The notes beneath the pieces are model-generated. The model was not told the DNA's origin. It did not search any database and worked only from the letters and a program-made list of their open reading frames with translations. A stretch of 64,000 nt of DNA, taken from NCBI GenBank assembly GCA_958296105.1, contig OY282441.1, positions 1,337,800 to 1,401,799 of the forward strand, in the 5' to 3' direction. Both the position numbers and the translations under genes were made by a program. Source of the stretch: an uncultured Dehalococcoidia bacterium. Lineage in GTDB: Bacteria > Chloroflexota > Dehalococcoidia > Lucifugimonadales > UBA1123. Of the stretch, positions 14,940-59,308 are shown in pieces (position 1 is the first letter of the stretch; every line of letters starts with the position of its first letter).

Positions 14940-16154
14940 TCAGACTGCGCCGCGCTCGCGCAGCGCGGCGATCTCGTCTGCGCTCACCCCCGCCTCACGG
15001 AGAACCTCATCGGTATGCTGACCCAAGAGCGGCGCGGGACGCCTGATCGCCCATGGCGTGGCGCCCATGACGAAGGGCCTGCCCGGGTATGTCAGGCTGC
15101 CGGCCTCGGGGTGGTCGATTTCGGCGAATGCGCCGCGCTCGCGGAAGACAGGATCGCGGTCGAGGTCTTCCATAGTGTTGAGCGGTCCGCTCAAGACGCG
15201 CGAGCGCTGCGCCTGCTCCCATATCTCGTACTTGGTTCTGTCCAGCAGCCACGGGTAGAAGATTGCGTCGAACAGCCCCGCCATGTCGTCGTCCGCCTGC
15301 GCTTCGGGAGTCAGCCACTCGTCCCCCGAAAGCTCCTGCGGGTTTCCGAGCATCTCGCGCACCCTGCCGAAGTAGCCGCCGCCACCCGTCACCTGGAAGT
15401 AGCCGTCCGCGCATGGATACGTCCCCGAGGGGTATCCTCCAGAGCCTGACGTCGCGCCCAGCGGCGCGCGCCCGCTTATCTCCCCGTTGTACTGGTAGGC
15501 GAGCAGCATGCTCATGCGGCGATCTATGGAGCCTGCCTGCGTCTCCATCAGCGAGACGTCCACGCGCTGCCCCGCGCCCCCGTCTCTGGCCGCCAGCACA
15601 GCGCCGAGCGTGGCGTATGCCGCTACCGCGCCGGCTTGGTAGAGTCCAACCGCGCCTCCCATCTTCAGCGGCTCCTTCTCCATGACGCCGGTCGAATACA
15701 GCTCGCCGCCCATCCCGTAGAAGATAAGCTCGGAGCCGCGCCAGTCTCGATACGGCCCGGTCTGCCCGAAGTTGGAGATGGAGGTCATCACGAGCGCGGG
15801 GTTGGCTGCGGAAAGCGTATCGAAGCCCAGTCCAAAGCCGTCCATCGTTCCGGGACGGAAGCTCTCCACCACGACGTCGGCTCTGGAAGCGAGCATACGC
15901 GCAAGGCGCTGCCCGTCTTCGGTGTCGAGGTCTAGCGTGATCGAGCGCTTGTTGGTGTTCAGGTGAAGGAACGCGCCGCTCTTTTCCGGGTGCGGCTCGT
16001 CGTTGGGGAATGGGCCGAGCGTTCGCGCCACGTCTCCCGTTCCGGGGCGTTCGACCTTTATGACCTCCGCGCCGTAGTCAGCGAGCAGCTTGGTGCAGTA
16101 CGGGCCGGCGATGTGGTGGGTGAAATCCAGCGCCGTTATGTCGGACAGTGCCAT
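14940..16154 (-). CDS. CaiB/BaiF family CoA-transferase, catalytic Asp not evident
   Basis: The fold is clearly class III CoA-transferase: ITALDFTHHIAGPYCTKLL, ADYGAEVIKVERPGTGD, the LNTNKRSITLDL strand and GQRVDVSLMET. In most members the acyl-carrying Asp sits in a D-x-x-x-G stretch about 20 residues before GQ-V-VS. Here that place reads GGAVGLYQAGAVAAYA, with no Asp. ATG 16154 gives the normal length. TTG 16163 has better spacing from GTGAGGTG. The gene is divergent from the class III aminotransferase at 16277. Either a neighbouring acid substitutes, or it is a non-transferring paralog. Confidence 0.88.
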   Translation of the reverse strand: MALSDITALDFTHHIAGPYCTKLLADYGAEVIKVERPGTGDVARTLGPFPNDEPHPEKSGAFLHLNTNKRSITLDLDTEDGQRLARMLASRADVVVESFRPGTMDGFGLGFDTLSAANPALVMTSISNFGQTGPYRDWRGSELIFYGMGGELYSTGVMEKEPLKMGGAVGLYQAGAVAAYATLGAVLAARDGGAGQRVDVSLMETQAGSIDRRMSMLLAYQYNGEISGRAPLGATSGSGGYPSGTYPCADGYFQVTGGGGYFGRVREMLGNPQELSGDEWLTPEAQADDDMAGLFDAIFYPWLLDRTKYEIWEQAQRSRVLSGPLNTMEDLDRDPVFRERGAFAEIDHPEAGSLTYPGRPFVMGATPWAIRRPAPLLGQHTDEVLREAGVSADEIAALRERGAV

Positions 16155-16223
16155 TTGCGCCAACAGGAACACCTCACATAATAGGATACAGATGATTCCG
16201 ATTGCATATCCGAACTCGCGGGC

Positions 16224-16229
16224 TATAAT
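16224..16229 (+). promoter_or_regulatory. -10 box of the class III aminotransferase
   Basis: TATAAT lies 47 bases before ATG 16277 in the divergent gap. A weak TTGCAT at 16203 is the nearest -35-like element. The leader would contain the GAGAGG ribosome binding site. Confidence 0.5.
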
Positions 16230-16276
16230 ACACATAATGCACTTCCGAATCCACATATCCACGAGAGGCGATCTCC

Positions 16277-17608
16277 ATGACCACGTCCATCGAGCAGCGA
16301 TTCTTCGAGCTTCACCCCAAATCCGCCGAGCTGCACGACTCGGCGCGGTCTCTGTTTCCGAACGGCGTGACGCACGACGCGAGGAGGCAGGACCCGTTCC
16401 AGCTCTACTACACCCACGCTGAGGGGGCGGCGAAGTACGATGTGGACGGCAACCGCATTCTCGACTACTTCCCCGGACACGGGGCGCTCATTCTGGGACA
16501 CTCGCGCCCGGAGGTGGTTCAGGCGGTTCAGGAGCAGATGGGGATGGGTACGCACTTCTCGGGATCCACAGAGCTGGAGATAGAGTGGGGCGGCTGGGTG
16601 CGCGAGCTGATACCCAGCGCGGAGAAGGTGCGCTTCCACAGCTCCGGCACGGAGGCGGACATGATGGCGATTCGCATGGCGCGCGCCTTCACGGGCAAGT
16701 CCAAAGTCATCAAGTTCGAGGACCACTTCCACGGTTGGAGCGACTACCTCGTGGCAGGCTCGGAGGGCATCGGAGGCATACCGAAGGAGACGCTCAGCAC
16801 GATGATCGTGCTGCCTCCGAACGACATAGAGACGTTCGAGAGGACGCTTCGAGAGAACGACGATATCGCGGCGGTGATTCTCGAACCCACAGGCGCGCAC
16901 ATGGGGCTGGAGCCGATCCTCCCCGAATTCCTCAGCCAGCTGCGGGAGGTGACGGAGCGCTACGGGGTGGTTCTCATATTCGACGAGGTGGTGACCGGCT
17001 TCCGCACGTCGAGAGGGGGGGCGCAGGAGTACTTCGGCATCAGGCCAGACCTGACCACGCTTGCCAAGATTCTGGGCGGCGGTCTGCCGGGCGGCGCAGT
17101 CGCGGGCAGGGCGGAGATCGTCAACATGATCGAGGGGCGTCAGGGAGACGCGGAGTTCAATCGAAACAGCCGAATCGCGCACAACGGCACGTTCAACGCC
17201 AACCCCATATCGGCGGCGGCGGGAGTCGCGGCGCTGAAGATAGTGGCGAACGAGCCGATCAACGACACCGCCAACGCTCGCGCCGCGCAGCTCAAGGACG
17301 GACTGAACGATCTGCTCGGACGGCTGGAGATACCGGGTTGCGCGACCGGCATCACGTCTCTGATGTTCCTGCATCTGGGGATCGACTACGAAGGGGACAC
17401 CGACTACTGCATTCTGACGCCGGAGCAGCAGGCTGTATCCATGGAGCCGGAGCGACTGCGCCAGCTCTCGCTATCGCTGCTGAACCACGGGGTGCAGTCC
17501 GGCAACAGGTTCATCCTGACGGCGGCGCACACAGAGGACGACATCGCCCACACCATCGACGCCTACGAGCGGGCGCTGACTGAGATACGCGCGCTGGGGC
17601 TGGTGTGA
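16277..17608 (+). CDS. Class III (PLP) aminotransferase, glutamate-1-semialdehyde aminomutase-like
   Basis: This is a fold-type I PLP enzyme. KFEDHFHGWSDY, LIFDEVVTGFR (the Asp that contacts the pyridine nitrogen) and LAKILGGGLPGGAVAGR (Lys forms the Schiff base) are all present, and HNGTFNANPISAAAG completes the site. The GGxPGGAxxGR style and early GAHMGLEP resemble the HemL branch, but 443 aa and the absence of haem genes nearby suggest a catabolic transaminase for an amino acid or amine. GAGAGG precedes the ATG. It stands divergent from a CoA-transferase. Confidence 0.92.
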   Translation: MTTSIEQRFFELHPKSAELHDSARSLFPNGVTHDARRQDPFQLYYTHAEGAAKYDVDGNRILDYFPGHGALILGHSRPEVVQAVQEQMGMGTHFSGSTELEIEWGGWVRELIPSAEKVRFHSSGTEADMMAIRMARAFTGKSKVIKFEDHFHGWSDYLVAGSEGIGGIPKETLSTMIVLPPNDIETFERTLRENDDIAAVILEPTGAHMGLEPILPEFLSQLREVTERYGVVLIFDEVVTGFRTSRGGAQEYFGIRPDLTTLAKILGGGLPGGAVAGRAEIVNMIEGRQGDAEFNRNSRIAHNGTFNANPISAAAGVAALKIVANEPINDTANARAAQLKDGLNDLLGRLEIPGCATGITSLMFLHLGIDYEGDTDYCILTPEQQAVSMEPERLRQLSLSLLNHGVQSGNRFILTAAHTEDDIAHTIDAYERALTEIRALGLV

Positions 17609-52906: not shown

Positions 52907-52933
52907 GAGTAGGGGCGCATAACGCCCCTACTC
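52907..52933. terminator. Strong bidirectional terminator hairpin
   Basis: GAGTAGGGGCG and CGCCCCTACTC form an 11-bp perfect stem with loop CATAA. It stands between the convergent amidohydrolase operon and the NHL gene. Its right arm includes the stop codon of the NHL gene. Confidence 0.85.
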
Positions 52934-53971
52934 CGCCGCGCATTGATACACCTGTATCCGCTGGCGGTTGGACTCCGTGACGTAGAGGCGGCCGGCGGCG
53001 TCCAGCTTTATGGAGACGGGCGACCAGAACAGCTTCTCAATGTGCGATGACTCCTCATGTGGGTCGTCCGGGTCGAACAGGTCTATCTGGGGTTCGAGGT
53101 TGGCGCGCTTTCTGGCTTCGGCCTCCTCTTTGTTGACGTCCAAGAATATCTTCGCCCATTCGGACTCGGTGGCCTGGCCTCGCAGCTTCTGGAGGAAACG
53201 TCCGTCTTCGTCCAGAACCTGCACTCGCTCGTTGCCCCAGTCTGCTACGTACATGCGCCCGCGCTCGTCGACAGCCACGCCGGAGGGTCGCTTCAGCTCG
53301 CCGTCTCCGGCGCCGGAAGTCCCATACGCGGCGATGAACTCGCCGTTCGGAGAAAAGCGCTGAACGCGGTCGTTGCCCCAGTCCGCCACGTATATATCGC
53401 CGTTCGGCGCGACCGTCAGCCCCCAGGGGAGGTCGAACTGGCCCTTGCCCGATCCGGCTTCTCCAAACCCGTCCAAGAACACGCCGCTGGGCGTGAACTT
53501 CTGGATGCGGTGGTTGTGTGTATCGGATACGAAGACGGTATCGTTCGCCCCGATCGCCAAGCCGGAAGGCCCGTCCAGCTCGCCCGCGCCGGCGCCGCGC
53601 AAGCCCCACTTCCGCAGGAAACCGCCGTCCAGATCGAACACGGACACGCGGCTGGCGTACTCGTCGCTGATGTAGATGCGCTTCCGAGAGTCCTCGGCTA
53701 GGGCCGAAAGATAGACGAACTGGCCGTCGCCGTGTCCGAACGATCCGAACGTGCCGTAGTATTCGCTGTCGATGTCGCACACGGTTACGCGGACTCCGCG
53801 GTCCACGCCGTCGACCGAGCGGTTTCCCACGTACATGCGACCGTTGGAGGCGATCACCATGTCGGTCGGATAGTAGAAGCCGCGCCCCTCCATGGTCGAC
53901 AGGCCTATGGTCAGGATGTATCGCAGCGCCTCTGCGCCTTTCCGTGCAGCTGTTCTTGTTTGGGCAGCCAT
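52928..53971 (-). CDS. NHL-repeat beta-propeller protein, DUF1800-linked
   Basis: This 347-aa protein has five to six NHL blades, for example PSGLAIGANDTVFVSDTHNH-RIQKF, LPWGLTVAPNGDIYVADWGN and PSGVAVDERGRMYVADWGN. An acidic insert (near 285-310) comes before the last blade VSIKLDAAGRLYVTES. ATG 53971 was chosen because GAGGGAG precedes it and the upstream open frame is Arg-rich shadow. It follows the DUF1800 gene by 59 bp in the same direction. Likely a scaffold or binding protein; no catalytic site is evident. Confidence 0.9.
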   Translation of the reverse strand: MAAQTRTAARKGAEALRYILTIGLSTMEGRGFYYPTDMVIASNGRMYVGNRSVDGVDRGVRVTVCDIDSEYYGTFGSFGHGDGQFVYLSALAEDSRKRIYISDEYASRVSVFDLDGGFLRKWGLRGAGAGELDGPSGLAIGANDTVFVSDTHNHRIQKFTPSGVFLDGFGEAGSGKGQFDLPWGLTVAPNGDIYVADWGNDRVQRFSPNGEFIAAYGTSGAGDGELKRPSGVAVDERGRMYVADWGNERVQVLDEDGRFLQKLRGQATESEWAKIFLDVNKEEAEARKRANLEPQIDLFDPDDPHEESSHIEKLFWSPVSIKLDAAGRLYVTESNRQRIQVYQCAAE

Positions 53972-54030
53972 GCTGCTCGTCTCCCTCAGCGCTCCGCGCG
54001 GAGCTTTGGCTCTCGCGCCCGTAGAAAAGT

Positions 54031-55440
54031 CTATGCCCGCTGGAATTCGTGCGTAGATGCTATCAGTCTGAGAAGGTGAGTAACCCTGTCCGCCAAGCTC
54101 TCGACGCTCGACGATACGCGCATGAGCGCTTCCCTCGTCTCTTGCGATACCGATATGGCTCCCATCTGGTCGAGGCAGGCATCCAGCAGCGCCTGCGGCG
54201 AGGCGGCGTTCTGCGCCAGTATGTTTTCGATCATCGCGGAGACGCCGGGCTTGTCGGCGTCTCCGAGCTGCTCGGACGCGAAGTTGATTCGCTCGATCAG
54301 GGATCCGGTGTCGATCCATTCGACTCCCTGATGCCAGCCCTCTACGCTCGGCGGGTTGGTGAGCATCTGCCCCATGAAGTTGGTCTGTAAGTACCTGTCG
54401 AGAATCTCGCGGCGCGGTCTGTCGAACTCCCCCGTGAGGCGAAGGATGCCAGTCACCAGCTCAGCCGGGCTCTTGACCTTCTGGTAGCGGATGTCCTCCG
54501 CCTTGAAGAAGTCGGAGTTGAACAGCGTCGTGAGCATCGCTCCGATGTCGTGGTCGCTGTCGAAGTACGCCTGAGCGAGCGTGTCTATCGCTTCGGGGTC
54601 GCGCGGCGGGGTGTAGGGCCAGGACGGCACGGGCGGCTCGTCTGCGACGAAGAAGTGGTACATGTGGCGCGCGATGAACCGCGCCGTTGCCTCCTGCTCG
54701 GCGATGATTCGTATGATGTCCTCGCCATCGAGGCTGCCCGTGTGTCCGAGAAACGTCTTTTCGCCCTCGTCGTGGTCTTCGGCGTTGTATTCGAAGTGCC
54801 ACGAAATCCTTCCGTAGGGCCAGTCGGAGTCGCGCATCGAGCGCAAGATCATGTACTCGGTGTTTCCGAGCGTCCATCCGGTAAAGGCGCGCGCGCACTC
54901 CTTGATGTCTTCTTCGGAGTAGCTGCCCACGCCCATGGAGAACAGCTCCAGCAGCTCGCGCCCCCAGTTCTCGTTGATCGCGCCCTTGTGGTTATCTTGG
55001 TTGTCGAGCCATACGATCATGGCGGGGTCTTTGGCAAGCTCCAACAGGAGGGCGTCGAACCTGCCCGTGCCGTATCGCCTGAACATTCTTATCTGGTCGG
55101 AGAGCGCCTTGCCGTGTATGACCTTCGGATAGCCGGTGGCGAATATGCCGTGCCAGAACAGAGCCATCTTCTCGCGCAGGGGCGCGCTGGTGGTGATCAT
55201 CCGATACAGCCAGTGGGCCGGGCCGCCCTGCGGGGTGAGCATTCCGGACTGCTCGTAGTGGAAGCGCCGCGCCAGATAGGTCTCTGGCCATCCCTCGTCT
55301 GGCGGGTTCATCAGCCGTTCGAGCGCGGCATCGTAGCCCTGTTCGGCTAACTCGTGGATTTCGTCTCGGCTGGCTCCAAAAGCGGCGCGCCGCATCAGGT
55401 GAGCTATCAGCCCTACGTCGGCTCTCGTCCCAACAGCCAT
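54031..55440 (-). CDS. DUF1800 domain protein
   Basis: This 469-aa protein belongs to DUF1800. ADVGLIAHLMRRAAFGASRDE starts the domain, REKMALFWHGIFATG follows, and ENWGRELLELFSMGVGSYSEEDI with ARAFTGWTL are the best-known signatures. Family members usually stand beside DUF1501 genes; none is here. ATG 55440 follows GAGGTG by 6 bases. No signal peptide is visible at this start. Function is unknown. Confidence 0.92.
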   Translation of the reverse strand: MAVGTRADVGLIAHLMRRAAFGASRDEIHELAEQGYDAALERLMNPPDEGWPETYLARRFHYEQSGMLTPQGGPAHWLYRMITTSAPLREKMALFWHGIFATGYPKVIHGKALSDQIRMFRRYGTGRFDALLLELAKDPAMIVWLDNQDNHKGAINENWGRELLELFSMGVGSYSEEDIKECARAFTGWTLGNTEYMILRSMRDSDWPYGRISWHFEYNAEDHDEGEKTFLGHTGSLDGEDIIRIIAEQEATARFIARHMYHFFVADEPPVPSWPYTPPRDPEAIDTLAQAYFDSDHDIGAMLTTLFNSDFFKAEDIRYQKVKSPAELVTGILRLTGEFDRPRREILDRYLQTNFMGQMLTNPPSVEGWHQGVEWIDTGSLIERINFASEQLGDADKPGVSAMIENILAQNAASPQALLDACLDQMGAISVSQETREALMRVSSSVESLADRVTHLLRLIASTHEFQRA

Positions 55441-55629
55441 CTCGTCACCTCGCGCAGTTGTCAGTAAGCGGCATCTCTCCAATTCGATGAGGAAATGGTT
55501 TCACACAGCAGCCGAGTAGTCAAATATCAGCCTGATTTCCCAAGACGATGTTTCAATTTTGCGGGTGGATGTGTCACCCTAGCCATATCCGCTCGACTCA
55601 GAGGGAGAGAAGATTGGAGAGGGGATGAA
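55441..55629. other. Gap with decayed C-rich element
   Basis: There is no credible gene between the divergent DUF1800 and cupin genes. The segment 55576-55615 (TCACCCTAGCC...AGGGAGAGAAG) looks like a decayed copy of the C-rich hairpin element. Confidence 0.45.
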
Positions 55630-55994: not shown

Positions 55995-57572
55995 TCAGCT
56001 GCCTTGCAGCGCGGTCAGCTCGGGCCATATGGAGCGCATCTGCCAGCAGTCCAGCGACAGCAGCCGCGCTTCGCCTCCTCTGGCGAATGCCGATACTCCA
56101 ACGCTGTCTTCGCGCTGTGGATAGACTCGGAGCGTCAGACACTGGCGATCGTTGGCGAACACCTCGATGATGCTGCGGTCTATGAACACGCGCAGATCGA
56201 GAGCTTCGCCTTCGGGCAGGTGCAGCGGTCCGATCTCCGCCGAGCGCGCCCACACCTCTCTTCCCAGTGAAGACTCGGAGACGTCTATCTGAAGCGAGCT
56301 GGTGCCGAAGCGTCTGTGGTCGTTAGGGTAGAGTGAGATTCGTGTCCGCTCCGCCCCGTCGGGTGAGCGCAGCGCGTATAGTCCGACCTCGCGCGCGGAG
56401 CGCGGGTCTATGGACGCGCGCAGCTCCACCGCCTTGCCGCCGATGCCGTCCAGAGCCACTTCGCGGTTCGCGGGAATGTCCATCGGAGCGGCAGACCGAT
56501 GCCCGAATCTCAGCGAATCCAACTCGCTCACCGGCGACATGCGAAGGGAGCCGTCTTCGCCGAGCCAGTAGTGGCGTGGCAGCGTCATCGTCTCGTCGGT
56601 GTCGTCCGCGTCTCTGCCGGTGTGCGTGTTGAAGATTCCGAGATAGCGGCCCGAGTCGTCTACGGTGGCGGATGGCGCGTGCAGGCTGCCGACCACCCAG
56701 GGGCCGTAGTTCATGCGGCCGTGCGACTCCGGACGGAAGCGGTGTGTCCGCGTATCGTACTCGCCGATGTAGTACCTGCCCGCGCGCTTGTGGCTGAACA
56801 GCAGGAGCATATGCTTGCCGCCGCCTATGGGCCAGAAGTTGGGTACGGCGGCATCCTCGCCCGGTTCGGCGAAGAAGGAGTCCTCCATCAGCGGGCCGAG
56901 GTACTCCCACTCTGCCAGGTCTTTCGACCTGAAGAGGTGATCGACTCCGACGGCGTCCGCGCCGCGCTCGCCGTCCTGATAGGTGCCGGATACGGAGTAG
57001 TAGAGTCCGTCATCCTCTTTCCAGATGCACGGATCGAAAACGCGGTAGCGCGCGCCGTCCTCGCCCGCGACGCTCTGGTTGGTGCCGGGGATGACGGGGT
57101 TGCTGGGGTGTTTGCGCCAGTTCAGCAGCAGGGGATCGGTCGCCGTGGCGATGGCGTTGCCCGCCTGCGTGCCGTGGTATATGGCGATGACGCGGTCGGA
57201 TTCCACGAGGGTCTGGCCGCTGAAGCAGTCGCGCTCCACGTCCGGGTACAGGGCTATGGGCAGGTCGCGCCAGTGTACGAGGTCTTCGCTGACGGTGTGG
57301 CCCCAGTGGACTCGGTCCTCGCCCGCGGGCCTGAACTGGTAGAACATGTGGTAGCGTCCGCGCCACTGGCACAGGCCGTTGGGATCGTTCATGTAGCTTT
57401 CGGGCGAGGAGAAGTGATACAGCGGACGGTGGGGGTCTGCCTGCGCCAGCCGCCGCCTGGACTCAGCGAAGCGCCGAACCCAGTCGTCCGATTCGAGCGC
57501 GCGCAGCTGCTCGTCGAGAGTGTCGGGATACGTCTTGCCGCCGAGCGGCTCGCCTGAGAATCGCAGTGTCAT
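55995..57572 (-). CDS. Glycoside hydrolase family 32-like protein, acid/base residue not evident
   Basis: This 525-aa protein has the five-bladed GH32 catalytic domain and a C-terminal beta-sandwich. The nucleophile motif is ESYMNDPNGLCQW (Asp63), and FYQFRPAGEDRVHWGH follows. The RDP region reads VFDPCIW. Where GH32 invertases have WECPD, with Glu as acid/base, this protein has AAVPNFWP, so Glu seems replaced by Ala. The late segment IDRSIIEVFANDRQCLTLRVYP is the sandwich signature. It may act on fructosides, or be a non-hydrolytic sugar binder. No signal peptide or PTS partner is seen. Confidence 0.85.
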   Translation of the reverse strand: MTLRFSGEPLGGKTYPDTLDEQLRALESDDWVRRFAESRRRLAQADPHRPLYHFSSPESYMNDPNGLCQWRGRYHMFYQFRPAGEDRVHWGHTVSEDLVHWRDLPIALYPDVERDCFSGQTLVESDRVIAIYHGTQAGNAIATATDPLLLNWRKHPSNPVIPGTNQSVAGEDGARYRVFDPCIWKEDDGLYYSVSGTYQDGERGADAVGVDHLFRSKDLAEWEYLGPLMEDSFFAEPGEDAAVPNFWPIGGGKHMLLLFSHKRAGRYYIGEYDTRTHRFRPESHGRMNYGPWVVGSLHAPSATVDDSGRYLGIFNTHTGRDADDTDETMTLPRHYWLGEDGSLRMSPVSELDSLRFGHRSAAPMDIPANREVALDGIGGKAVELRASIDPRSAREVGLYALRSPDGAERTRISLYPNDHRRFGTSSLQIDVSESSLGREVWARSAEIGPLHLPEGEALDLRVFIDRSIIEVFANDRQCLTLRVYPQREDSVGVSAFARGGEARLLSLDCWQMRSIWPELTALQGS

Positions 57573-57622
57573 TGGCTCGATCTATCCTTTCGACATGGCT
57601 GCGGCGTGGCAGTCATCGCGTC

Positions 57623-57979
57623 TCATATCATCAGGCCCGGCACCGGGATCAGTCGCTGCGCAACCGGGTCGACGCGCATGTATGCGCCTTCGAGCGCGAG
57701 CGCGCCGAGCAGCGCAGGCGTACCTTCATCGTTGAAGAGTACCTGCGTCACGATCTCCTCTCCTCCGAATCGCACCCACGTATGCCCGATATCCATTGCC
57801 CTGATCTCGCCCTGGGCGAATTGGAAGCGCTTTCTCATGGTGGGAGCTACGCCCAATTCGTGAAGAACCGACGCAGGCGCGGCGGTCATCGTGGCTCCGG
57901 TATCCACCAGAGCGTCCATCGGCACCCACCGATTCCGTTCGAAGTCGCCTATCTCGATCTCGACGCTGAACGTTCCCAA
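57623..57979 (-). CDS. Clan AA (retropepsin-like) aspartic protease, copy 1
   Basis: This 118-aa single-lobe aspartic protease contains MDALVDTGATMTAAP with the catalytic DTG (in place of the usual DTGS, here DTGA). The second conserved strand is TQVLFNDEGTPALLGALAL, ahead of a short hydrophobic end. It would need to dimerise, as retroviral proteases do. It is 366 bp offset from an almost identical gene. No target is known. Confidence 0.87.
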   Translation of the reverse strand: MGTFSVEIEIGDFERNRWVPMDALVDTGATMTAAPASVLHELGVAPTMRKRFQFAQGEIRAMDIGHTWVRFGGEEIVTQVLFNDEGTPALLGALALEGAYMRVDPVAQRLIPVPGLMI

Positions 57980-57988
57980 TTTTTCACC

Positions 57989-58345
57989 TCACATCATCAG
58001 GCCCGGCACCGGGATCAGTCGCTGCGCAACCGGGTCGACGCCCATGTATGCGTTTTCGAGCGCGAGCGCGCCAAGCAGCGCAGGCGTACCTTCGTCATTG
58101 AAGAGTACCTGCGTCATAACCTCAGATCCCGCGAATCTCACCCAAGTGTATCCAATCTCCATCAGCCTAGTTTCACCTTGCGCGAATTGGAAAAGTTGGC
58201 TGGCTTCTGGCTCTACTCCCAGCTCCCGAAGAATCGACGACGGCGCAGACGTGATGGACGCTCCGGTATCCACCAGAGCGTGCATGGATACCCACCGGTT
58301 CCGTTCGGAGTCGCCTATCTCGATCTCGACGCTGAACGTTCCCAA
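57989..58345 (-). CDS. Clan AA (retropepsin-like) aspartic protease, copy 2
   Basis: This paralog has the same length as copy 1 and the same ends. The active site is MHALVDTGASITSAP, so the motif is the standard DTGAS. Differences gather in residues 27-80, while the C-terminal third is almost unchanged. The gene comes first on the strand, 9 bp before copy 1, so both may be translated from one message and could form a heterodimer. Confidence 0.87.
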   Translation of the reverse strand: MGTFSVEIEIGDSERNRWVSMHALVDTGASITSAPSSILRELGVEPEASQLFQFAQGETRLMEIGYTWVRFAGSEVMTQVLFNDEGTPALLGALALENAYMGVDPVAQRLIPVPGLMM

Positions 58346-58435
58346 CTTTTCACCTCGCTGTGGCAGTGTACCGAGTATAACAGGTGGGCATATCTGATAC
58401 AGTTATTCTCGCAAGATCAGATCGAGAGGCCGACC

Positions 58436-59308
58436 ATGCCCATTTCAGCGCTAGACGAGCATCCGCGCAAGAGTATCGCCGCGCTCGACGTCGAAATGTC
58501 ATACGTGGATACCGGGCAGGGGATGCCGATGGTGATGCTGCACGGCAACCCAACGAGCGCCTACCTGTGGCGCAACGTCATTCCTCACGCGCGCGACTCT
58601 GTCAGGTGCCTCGCGCCCGATCTCGTGGGCATGGGGCGTTCGGGCGCGTCGCCGTCGGGGTCGTACAGATTCGTAGATCACGTCCGATATCTGGACGCAT
58701 GGCTGGATGCGCTCGATCTTGGGGACGATATCGTTCTGGTGGGTCACGACTGGGGTTCTGCGCTGGCGTTCCACTGGGCATACAGGCATCAGGATCGGCT
58801 GCGCGGCTTGGTCTACATGGAGGCGATAGTGCAGTCGCTGAGGTGGGATCAGTGGCCGCAGGCGGCGCGGCGCATCTTCGAGGGCTTCAGGTCGGACTCC
58901 GGCGAGGGTATGATCCTCGAAAACAACCTGTTCGTAGAGCGCGTCTTGCCGGGGAGCGTCATCCGCGCCCTGAGCGAAGAAGAGATGTCCGTATATCGCG
59001 CGCCATACGTCGAACGGGGGGAGTCGCGGCGGCCGACCCTCACGTGGCCGCGCGAGATACCGCTGGACGGCCAGCCTGCGGACGTCGTGGAGATAGTGGA
59101 TGACTACTCGGCTTGGCTGGCGGAATCGGACGTTCCCAAGCTGTTCGTGAACGCGCGGCCGGGGGCGATACTGACTGGAAGCCAGCGCGAGTTCTGCCGC
59201 TCGTGGCCGAATCAGGAGGAGGTCACCGTGAAGGGCGTCCACTTCGTTCAGGAGGACTCGCCTGACGAGATAGGCAGCGCGATCGCGGACTGGCTGCGGC
59301 GTGTCTGA
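58436..59308 (+). CDS. Haloalkane dehalogenase, subfamily II (DhaA/LinB-like)
   Basis: This alpha/beta hydrolase of 290 aa replaces a halogen on an alkane with hydroxyl. The full active site is seen: HGNPTSAYLWRN gives halide-binding Asn38, LVGHDWGSALAFHW gives nucleophile Asp105 and halide-binding Trp106, VYMEAIV gives Glu129, and GVHFVQEDSPDEIG gives His269. This pentad is the HLD-II set. GAGAGG precedes the ATG. It stands alone with the cyclic phosphodiesterase-like gene downstream, so a haloacid or alcohol pathway is not next door. Other haloalkane-like hydrolases are less likely. Confidence 0.92.
   Translation: MPISALDEHPRKSIAALDVEMSYVDTGQGMPMVMLHGNPTSAYLWRNVIPHARDSVRCLAPDLVGMGRSGASPSGSYRFVDHVRYLDAWLDALDLGDDIVLVGHDWGSALAFHWAYRHQDRLRGLVYMEAIVQSLRWDQWPQAARRIFEGFRSDSGEGMILENNLFVERVLPGSVIRALSEEEMSVYRAPYVERGESRRPTLTWPREIPLDGQPADVVEIVDDYSAWLAESDVPKLFVNARPGAILTGSQREFCRSWPNQEEVTVKGVHFVQEDSPDEIGSAIADWLRRV

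Follow-up and report, generated by a model that had tools for sequence, protein, structure and literature searches.

A GH32-fold clade without the acid/base glutamate and with a candidate Asp/His unit in its place

The gene at 55995 to 57572 on the minus strand of the window (the whole stretch of 64,000 nucleotides that was analysed) encodes a protein of the glycoside hydrolase family 32 (GH32) fold from which both the acid/base Glu of invertases and the Arg of the RDP motif have been lost. Both Asp residues of the active site are kept, and the protein belongs to a clade that is under purifying selection and carries, clade-wide, an Asp and a His at positions 240 and 261. Working from alignments and predicted structures, we read the product, with moderate confidence, as a glycosidase that is still active and whose acid/base unit has been rebuilt, so that the acid step would take place at the predicted Asp240/His261 site. 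The gene and the residues concerned are as follows.

55995 to 57572, minus strand: Glu-less GH32-like protein of 525 residues (Pfam N- and C-terminal GH32 domains, AlphaFold2 model, structural match to 7vco)
57375 to 57392, minus strand: MNDPNG, residues 61 to 66, the nucleophile motif with D63 (sequence)
57033 to 57038, minus strand: F179-D180, an aromatic residue for the Arg of RDP, with the Asp retained (alignment columns)
56856 to 56858, minus strand: E239 of PGEDAAVP, an acid candidate at first pass, variable as Glu
56853 to 56855, minus strand: D240, two residues ahead of the Glu position, candidate acid or partner of H261 (conservation)
56829 to 56852, minus strand: AAVPNFWP, residues 241 to 248, at the site of WECPDFFP (alignment to 7vco and profile alignment)
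56847 to 56849, minus strand: A242, the position of the lost acid/base Glu (alignment)
56790 to 56792, minus strand: H261 of FSH, candidate catalytic His (conservation and model)
56679 to 56681, minus strand: H298, at the Tyr of YASK (Tyr pairing read from the profile-PDB alignment)
56628 to 56630, minus strand: N315, at the site of a Trp (alignment columns)

The reading frame runs from an ATG at 57572 to a stop ending at 55995, and its 525-residue product is a full-length GH32-fold protein with both Pfam domains, the N-terminal one (PF00251, 1.9e-42) spanning positions 1-307 of a 307-position profile and the C-terminal one (PF08244, 1.2e-24) positions 2-158 of 158. Its best sequence match in the PDB is 7vco (phmmer, E 1.3e-42), and it scores below the NCBI cut-offs for both ScrB (150.9 bits, cut-off 356.4) and BfrA (133.2, cut-off 900). 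It is the only gene with a GH32 N-terminal domain in the window's genome, a single contig that is 97% complete, and any GH32-based claim that this organism uses sucrose or fructan therefore rests on it. Glu-less proteins pass the Pfam cut-offs for GH32 and would probably be named GH32 or fructan-degrading enzymes.

Homologues were found in 26 of 98 related genomes and in 85 of 400 genomes of the phylum, with ordinary GH32 proteins counted in both, and were also drawn from a collection of named genomes in which at least 591 loci were confirmed and the best 80 of these were used. The resulting alignment has 145 rows, of which 120 are Glu-less (113 core and seven early-branching rows) and 25 carry the Glu or, once, Asp; as sampling was by the query and its Glu-less profile, the split of 120 in 145 is not a prevalence. 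The first-pass annotation had suggested a search for a subgroup with the same motif, and the Glu-less state is indeed a clade trait, shared by 120 of the 145 aligned rows with the query included. A frameshift or base error is thereby excluded as the cause of the missing Glu, and decay to a pseudogene was likewise rejected, dN/dS being low.

The nucleophile motif MNDPNG was described as intact at first pass, and so it is: D63 is found in 119 of the 120 Glu-less rows (the remaining row has a gap) and in all 25 others. The same annotation held that the acid/base Glu of WECPD is absent and that AAVPNFWP stands in its place, which is borne out by the phmmer alignment, where the Glu of ECPDFFP in 7vco falls on A242, and by a profile of 24 relatives (alignment A1) searched against the PDB, which reproduces the pairing. 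Position 242 is Ala, Ser or Gly in 119 Glu-less rows and Met in one, and in the other 25 rows it is Glu in 24 and Asp in one. The change goes further than was first claimed, since the Arg of RDP aligns to F179 and its Asp to D180: Arg at position 179 occurs in none of the 120 Glu-less rows as against 25/25 of the Glu-bearing ones, with Phe, Tyr or Trp there in 114/120, while D180 is retained in 119/120. In the available text of PMC3360783 this Arg is described as completely conserved across clan GH-J and as a modulator of the pKa of the catalytic Glu, and on that account the joint loss of Glu and Arg is coherent. At the Tyr of YASK, a His (H298) is present in 107 of the 113 core rows and in none of the seven early-branching ones, with Tyr in 22 of the 25 Glu-bearing rows; N315 is Asn in 112/113 core rows (one gap), where 7/7 early-branching and 19/25 Glu-bearing rows have Trp. 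Of the defining features of GH32, then, the fold, a five-bladed propeller joined to a C-terminal beta-sandwich, and the NDPNG nucleophile are present and the RDP Arg and acid/base Glu are absent; judged from its sequence, the protein is a GH32 relative by homology and, by the defining residues tested, no standard GH32 enzyme.

Two ionisable residues set the Glu-less rows apart from the rest. D240 is found in 118 of the 120 and H261 in all of them, and neither occurs in any of the 25 Glu-bearing rows. Only these two were returned when residues 40-359 were scanned for ionisable residues shared by no fewer than 90% of the core rows and by all seven early-branching ones but absent from every Glu-bearing row. 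H298, E113, E124 and R127 are mainly residues of the core rows. Beyond the scanned range, 111 of 119 Glu-less rows share E446 of the C-terminal domain, a residue that is rarer in Glu-bearing ones; as it too marks the clade, clade-specific conservation alone is no proof of a role in the active site. The first-pass annotation offered three options, another acid, another reaction or a binding role, and it is the first of these that the conservation of D240 and H261 supports best, although the acid it singled out, E239 of PGEDAAVP, was the wrong neighbour: position 239 is Asp in 83 Glu-less rows, Glu in 33, Ser in three and Thr in one, and E239 is rejected as the replacement acid.

A few relatives depart from the common pattern. 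Two (L102:2082-3575 and L103:7959-9455) have a GDS motif and, separately, lack D240 but keep H261, a third (L105:3542-5116) has SAP for RDP and so no D180, and a fourth (L111:4598-6208) has a GDA motif; such altered motifs are possibly a step toward loss of catalysis. Among Glu-bearing GH32 proteins, those of haloarchaea (L127, L128 and L131-L133) have RDH in place of RDP.

In trees built without the trait columns the Glu-less rows form one side of a branch, with an SH-aLRT value of 98 for 79 rows and bootstrap and SH-aLRT values of 100 and 99 for 47 rows; in the 47-row tree the early-branching Glu-less rows group only weakly on their own (81/23). A single origin therefore suffices, and the correlation between lost and gained residues may represent one event rather than many, in which case D240 and H261 could be its passengers. 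By record title the Glu-less rows come from Chloroflexota, Poribacteria, Planctomycetota, Lentisphaerota, Kiritimatiellota, Verrucomicrobiota, Latescibacterota, Armatimonadota, Bacteroidota and Pseudomonadota, with single assemblies titled Gemmatimonadota, Actinomycetota and Bacillota. Most are metagenome assemblies; the named strains are Larkinella punicea, Pontiella sulfatireligans and Candidatus Lucifugimonas marina, a member of SAR202 whose copy, in the named collection, lies at CP046147.1 from 1040345. A genome from the order of the window's organism (G089) carries its homologue at identical coordinates (C1 from 1040345), and the window's organism is therefore probably of the SAR202 kind. 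One Anaerolineaceae stretch (L059:3629-15081) holds four tandem Glu-less copies together with one Glu-bearing GH32-like gene. A search of plasmids returned 306 records, all below 60% identity and several of them titled glycoside hydrolase family 32 protein.

In the mechanism we propose, D63 would keep its role as nucleophile, or serve as base in the case of an inverting reaction, and the -1 sugar would still be held by D180. D240 and H261, placed at the two ends of the former Glu hairpin, would act as a candidate Asp/His dyad and take over the acid step that in invertases is performed by Glu with the help of the RDP Arg. Space for this arrangement would come from the small side chain at 242 and the aromatic one at 179, which would also alter the shape of the -1/+1 site, so that the substrate would probably be neither sucrose nor ordinary fructan. 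Signal-peptide-like starts were seen in three of the 113 core rows by a crude hydrophobicity test, with N-terminal starts picked by rule and therefore uncertain; members of the clade thus look mostly intracellular and would act on small, probably imported sugars. It had been argued at first pass that an invertase without its Glu should be nearly inactive. This is fair for an invertase, but here the acid/base network has changed as well, the RDP Arg being mostly replaced by an aromatic residue and the Tyr of YASK by His in most core members, which points to a site that was rebuilt rather than broken.

The AlphaFold2 model of the query was built on alignment A2 of 87 sequences and has a mean pLDDT of 93.4 and a pTM of 0.93. 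It superposes on 7vco with Z 39.0 (452 residues aligned, rmsd 2.8), and its top eight structural matches are invertases (Z 37-39, 410-452 residues, 27-28% identity). In this model a strand of residues 242-250 begins at A242 and is followed by a turn at 251-252, a second strand at 253-260 and then H261. A model of the Pontiella relative (L116; alignment A3, 58 sequences, pLDDT 91.9) has the corresponding strands at 252-259 and 262-269, its GDDGACP motif, counted from 248, giving A252 and its His being residue 270. Under a naive register H261 of the query faces A242 (242+261 = 250+253), and in the relative it is Ser269, not His270, that faces A252 (252+269 = 259+262). In both models, then, the His is no more than one residue away from the position that naive pairing places across from the Glu site, and as their registers differ by one we have downgraded the hairpin argument for the direction in which the His side chain points.

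The models also bear on the possibility that the acid is the carboxylate of D240 alone, shifted by two residues along the strand, with H261 merely shaping the +1 subsite. Residues i and i-2 of an extended strand normally lie on the same face, D240 is present in 118 of the 120 Glu-less rows, and a carboxylic acid would preserve the usual retaining chemistry. However, D240 and its counterpart in the Pontiella relative both lie two residues ahead of the strand and outside it, Asp is shorter than Glu, and H261 is conserved even in the two relatives without D240 (L102 and L103); we regard this explanation as unlikely, though the best placed of the alternatives to the Asp240/His261 unit. The two residues could also bind a charge on the substrate, or a metal, instead.

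That the clade kept the GH32 fold for binding or regulation and lost the ability to cut appears less probable again. The case for it lies in the Glu to Ala change, which is the same as in the E203A mutant of AtcwINV1 crystallised with sucrose (2qqv, the first Foldseek match of the query model), and in the relative that lacks D180 as well (L105). The comparison with the mutant has its bounds: E203A is a laboratory change and the Glu-less state a natural, clade-wide one, and according to the accessible text of PMC3360783 the mutant keeps Arg148 and Tyr279, whereas the query has lost the RDP Arg. Against a binding role, all but one of the 120 Glu-less rows retain D63 and all but one retain D180; instead of drifting, the site has acquired conserved residues. 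Selection tells the same way, with Nei-Gojobori dN/dS values of 0.09-0.14 between the query and four relatives and of 0.06 for L003/L004, the pair in which saturation is lowest (dS 0.59); values could be computed for nine of ten pairs of close relatives, and as dS exceeds 1 in all but L003/L004 they are rough. A pseudoenzyme would be expected to combine several catalytic losses with relaxed constraint, and what we find is D63 and D180 kept and dN/dS at 0.06-0.14, a combination that, on sequence grounds, argues against a dead protein.

We give little credence to a reaction that needs no acid from the protein, whether through a leaving group that requires no protonation, substrate-assisted catalysis, phosphorolysis or transfer. 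Such a reaction would explain why the Glu and the Arg that modulates it are both gone, and sulfatase-like genes, found as a BLAST cluster at 12 of the 80 named loci (the best 80 of at least 591), hint at acidic substrates; a sulfatase gene directly adjoins the Glu-less gene in L059, L116 and L118. The sulfatase link is weak, however, as the six genomes examined hold from 17 to at least 118 sulfatases each (L059 31, L118 27, L060 17, L116 at least 118 among 509 candidates, L106 38 and L097 25, the last, unlike the other five, with none in the locus cluster), and the window's genome has seven, the nearest about 23.5 kb away. With sulfatases this abundant in the genomes examined, those at the loci do not fix the substrate, and their partnership is retained as a lead only. 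The Pfam match of the L059 sulfatase (15118-16518) begins at residue 5, and this enzyme may therefore be cytoplasmic. Substitution of the Glu by some other residue such as E113 or H298 is very improbable, because, although both residues are conserved in the core rows (111/113 and 107/113), E113 occurs in only 1/7 and H298 in 0/7 of the early-branching Glu-less rows, so that neither explains the whole clade.

The Asp240/His261 unit that we favour would place these proteins at some distance from known GH32 enzymes. With the beta-fructofuranosidases and sucrose-6-phosphate hydrolases of that family (7vco, 1uyp and AtcwINV1, 2ac1) they share the fold, the C-terminal domain, NDPNG and the Asp of RDP; they differ in having no acid/base Glu, no RDP Arg, mostly His for the YASK Tyr, and D240 and H261 as new residues. 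A His acid beside an Asp, as proposed here for the candidate dyad, has been described elsewhere. In the GH117 3,6-anhydro-L-galactosidases a His general acid is backed by an Asp, with support from simulation (PMC11574756), and in the GH156 sialidases a His acid with an Asp base has been proposed (PMC6811678), a His-Asp pair that is also noted in PMC11574756; GH117 is likewise a beta-propeller (PMC6811678), these points being taken from the available portions of both papers. No GH117 or GH156 entry was among the PDB sequence-search matches (41 and 49 matched sequences) or among the 50 structural matches listed for the query model, the latter absence carrying no weight as evidence. An altered RDP is also seen in the beta-galactosidase Lac161_ORF10 (DUF377), a GH_J-like propeller with KDP for RDP that released no glucose from sucrose (PMC5342196); it resembles the Glu-less clade in this respect, its Pfam family is a different one (PF04041), and the accessible part of that paper describes no exchange of Glu for Asp/His.

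A bolder reading, which we put forward tentatively and with some doubt, is that GH32 annotations conceal a separate family of glycosidases, spread over about a dozen bacterial phyla. Its Glu and Arg would have been swapped once for an Asp240/His261 dyad, GH117-type chemistry being thereby invented separately, and a new substrate would have been taken on. Among the papers listed in a literature search, none was seen to describe a Glu-less GH32 clade. In a study of sponge Chloroflexi, GH32 and GH33 were counted as sialidase-annotated families in one Caldilineae bin, as far as its available text goes (PMC6306507). Members of the clade should not be annotated as ordinary invertases, since both the sugar they cut and the way they cut it are probably different. 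If the Asp/His unit is real, the clade shows, on a single branch, how a glycosidase fold exchanged one acid/base apparatus for another, and Glu-bearing relatives are at hand for side-by-side mutants. It would also imply that SAR202-type Chloroflexota, Poribacteria, Planctomycetota and other groups handle an unrecognised sugar.

The genes around the GH32-like gene in the window include the following.

57623 to 57979 and 57989 to 58345, minus strand: two tandem ORFs of 118 residues that start at TTG and have weak matches to aspartyl protease families of the retroviral type
52928 to 55482, minus strand: a DUF1800 gene and an NHL-repeat gene, adjoining the GH32-like gene

The tandem aspartyl-protease-like ORFs lie just upstream on the same strand, and a genome of the same genus (G002, stretch L140) has a copy of the second that is 74% identical. 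An overlapping ORF on the plus strand (57566-59308) is probably genuine in its abhydrolase part only. In four of 12 stretches (L138, L145, L148 and L149, from genomes G001, G014, G022 and G050) the DUF1800/NHL pair and the homologue are no more than about 10 kb apart, and in G022 the pair includes the sole DUF1800 gene found; as the window's genome holds 13 DUF1800 copies, this proximity is not conclusive as a partnership. Other neighbours of Glu-less homologues are ABC-transporter permeases and Gfo/Idh/MocA oxidoreductases. In the Larkinella locus (L097:5-16219) a SusD gene and genes for BNR-repeat proteins and for a protein of the dihydrodipicolinate-synthase family (DHDPS) are found close to the Glu-less one, and the first gene of the locus, which clusters with genes of L089 and L079, is SusC-like by size and place only. 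One guess for the substrate there would be a keto-sugar such as a sialic acid.
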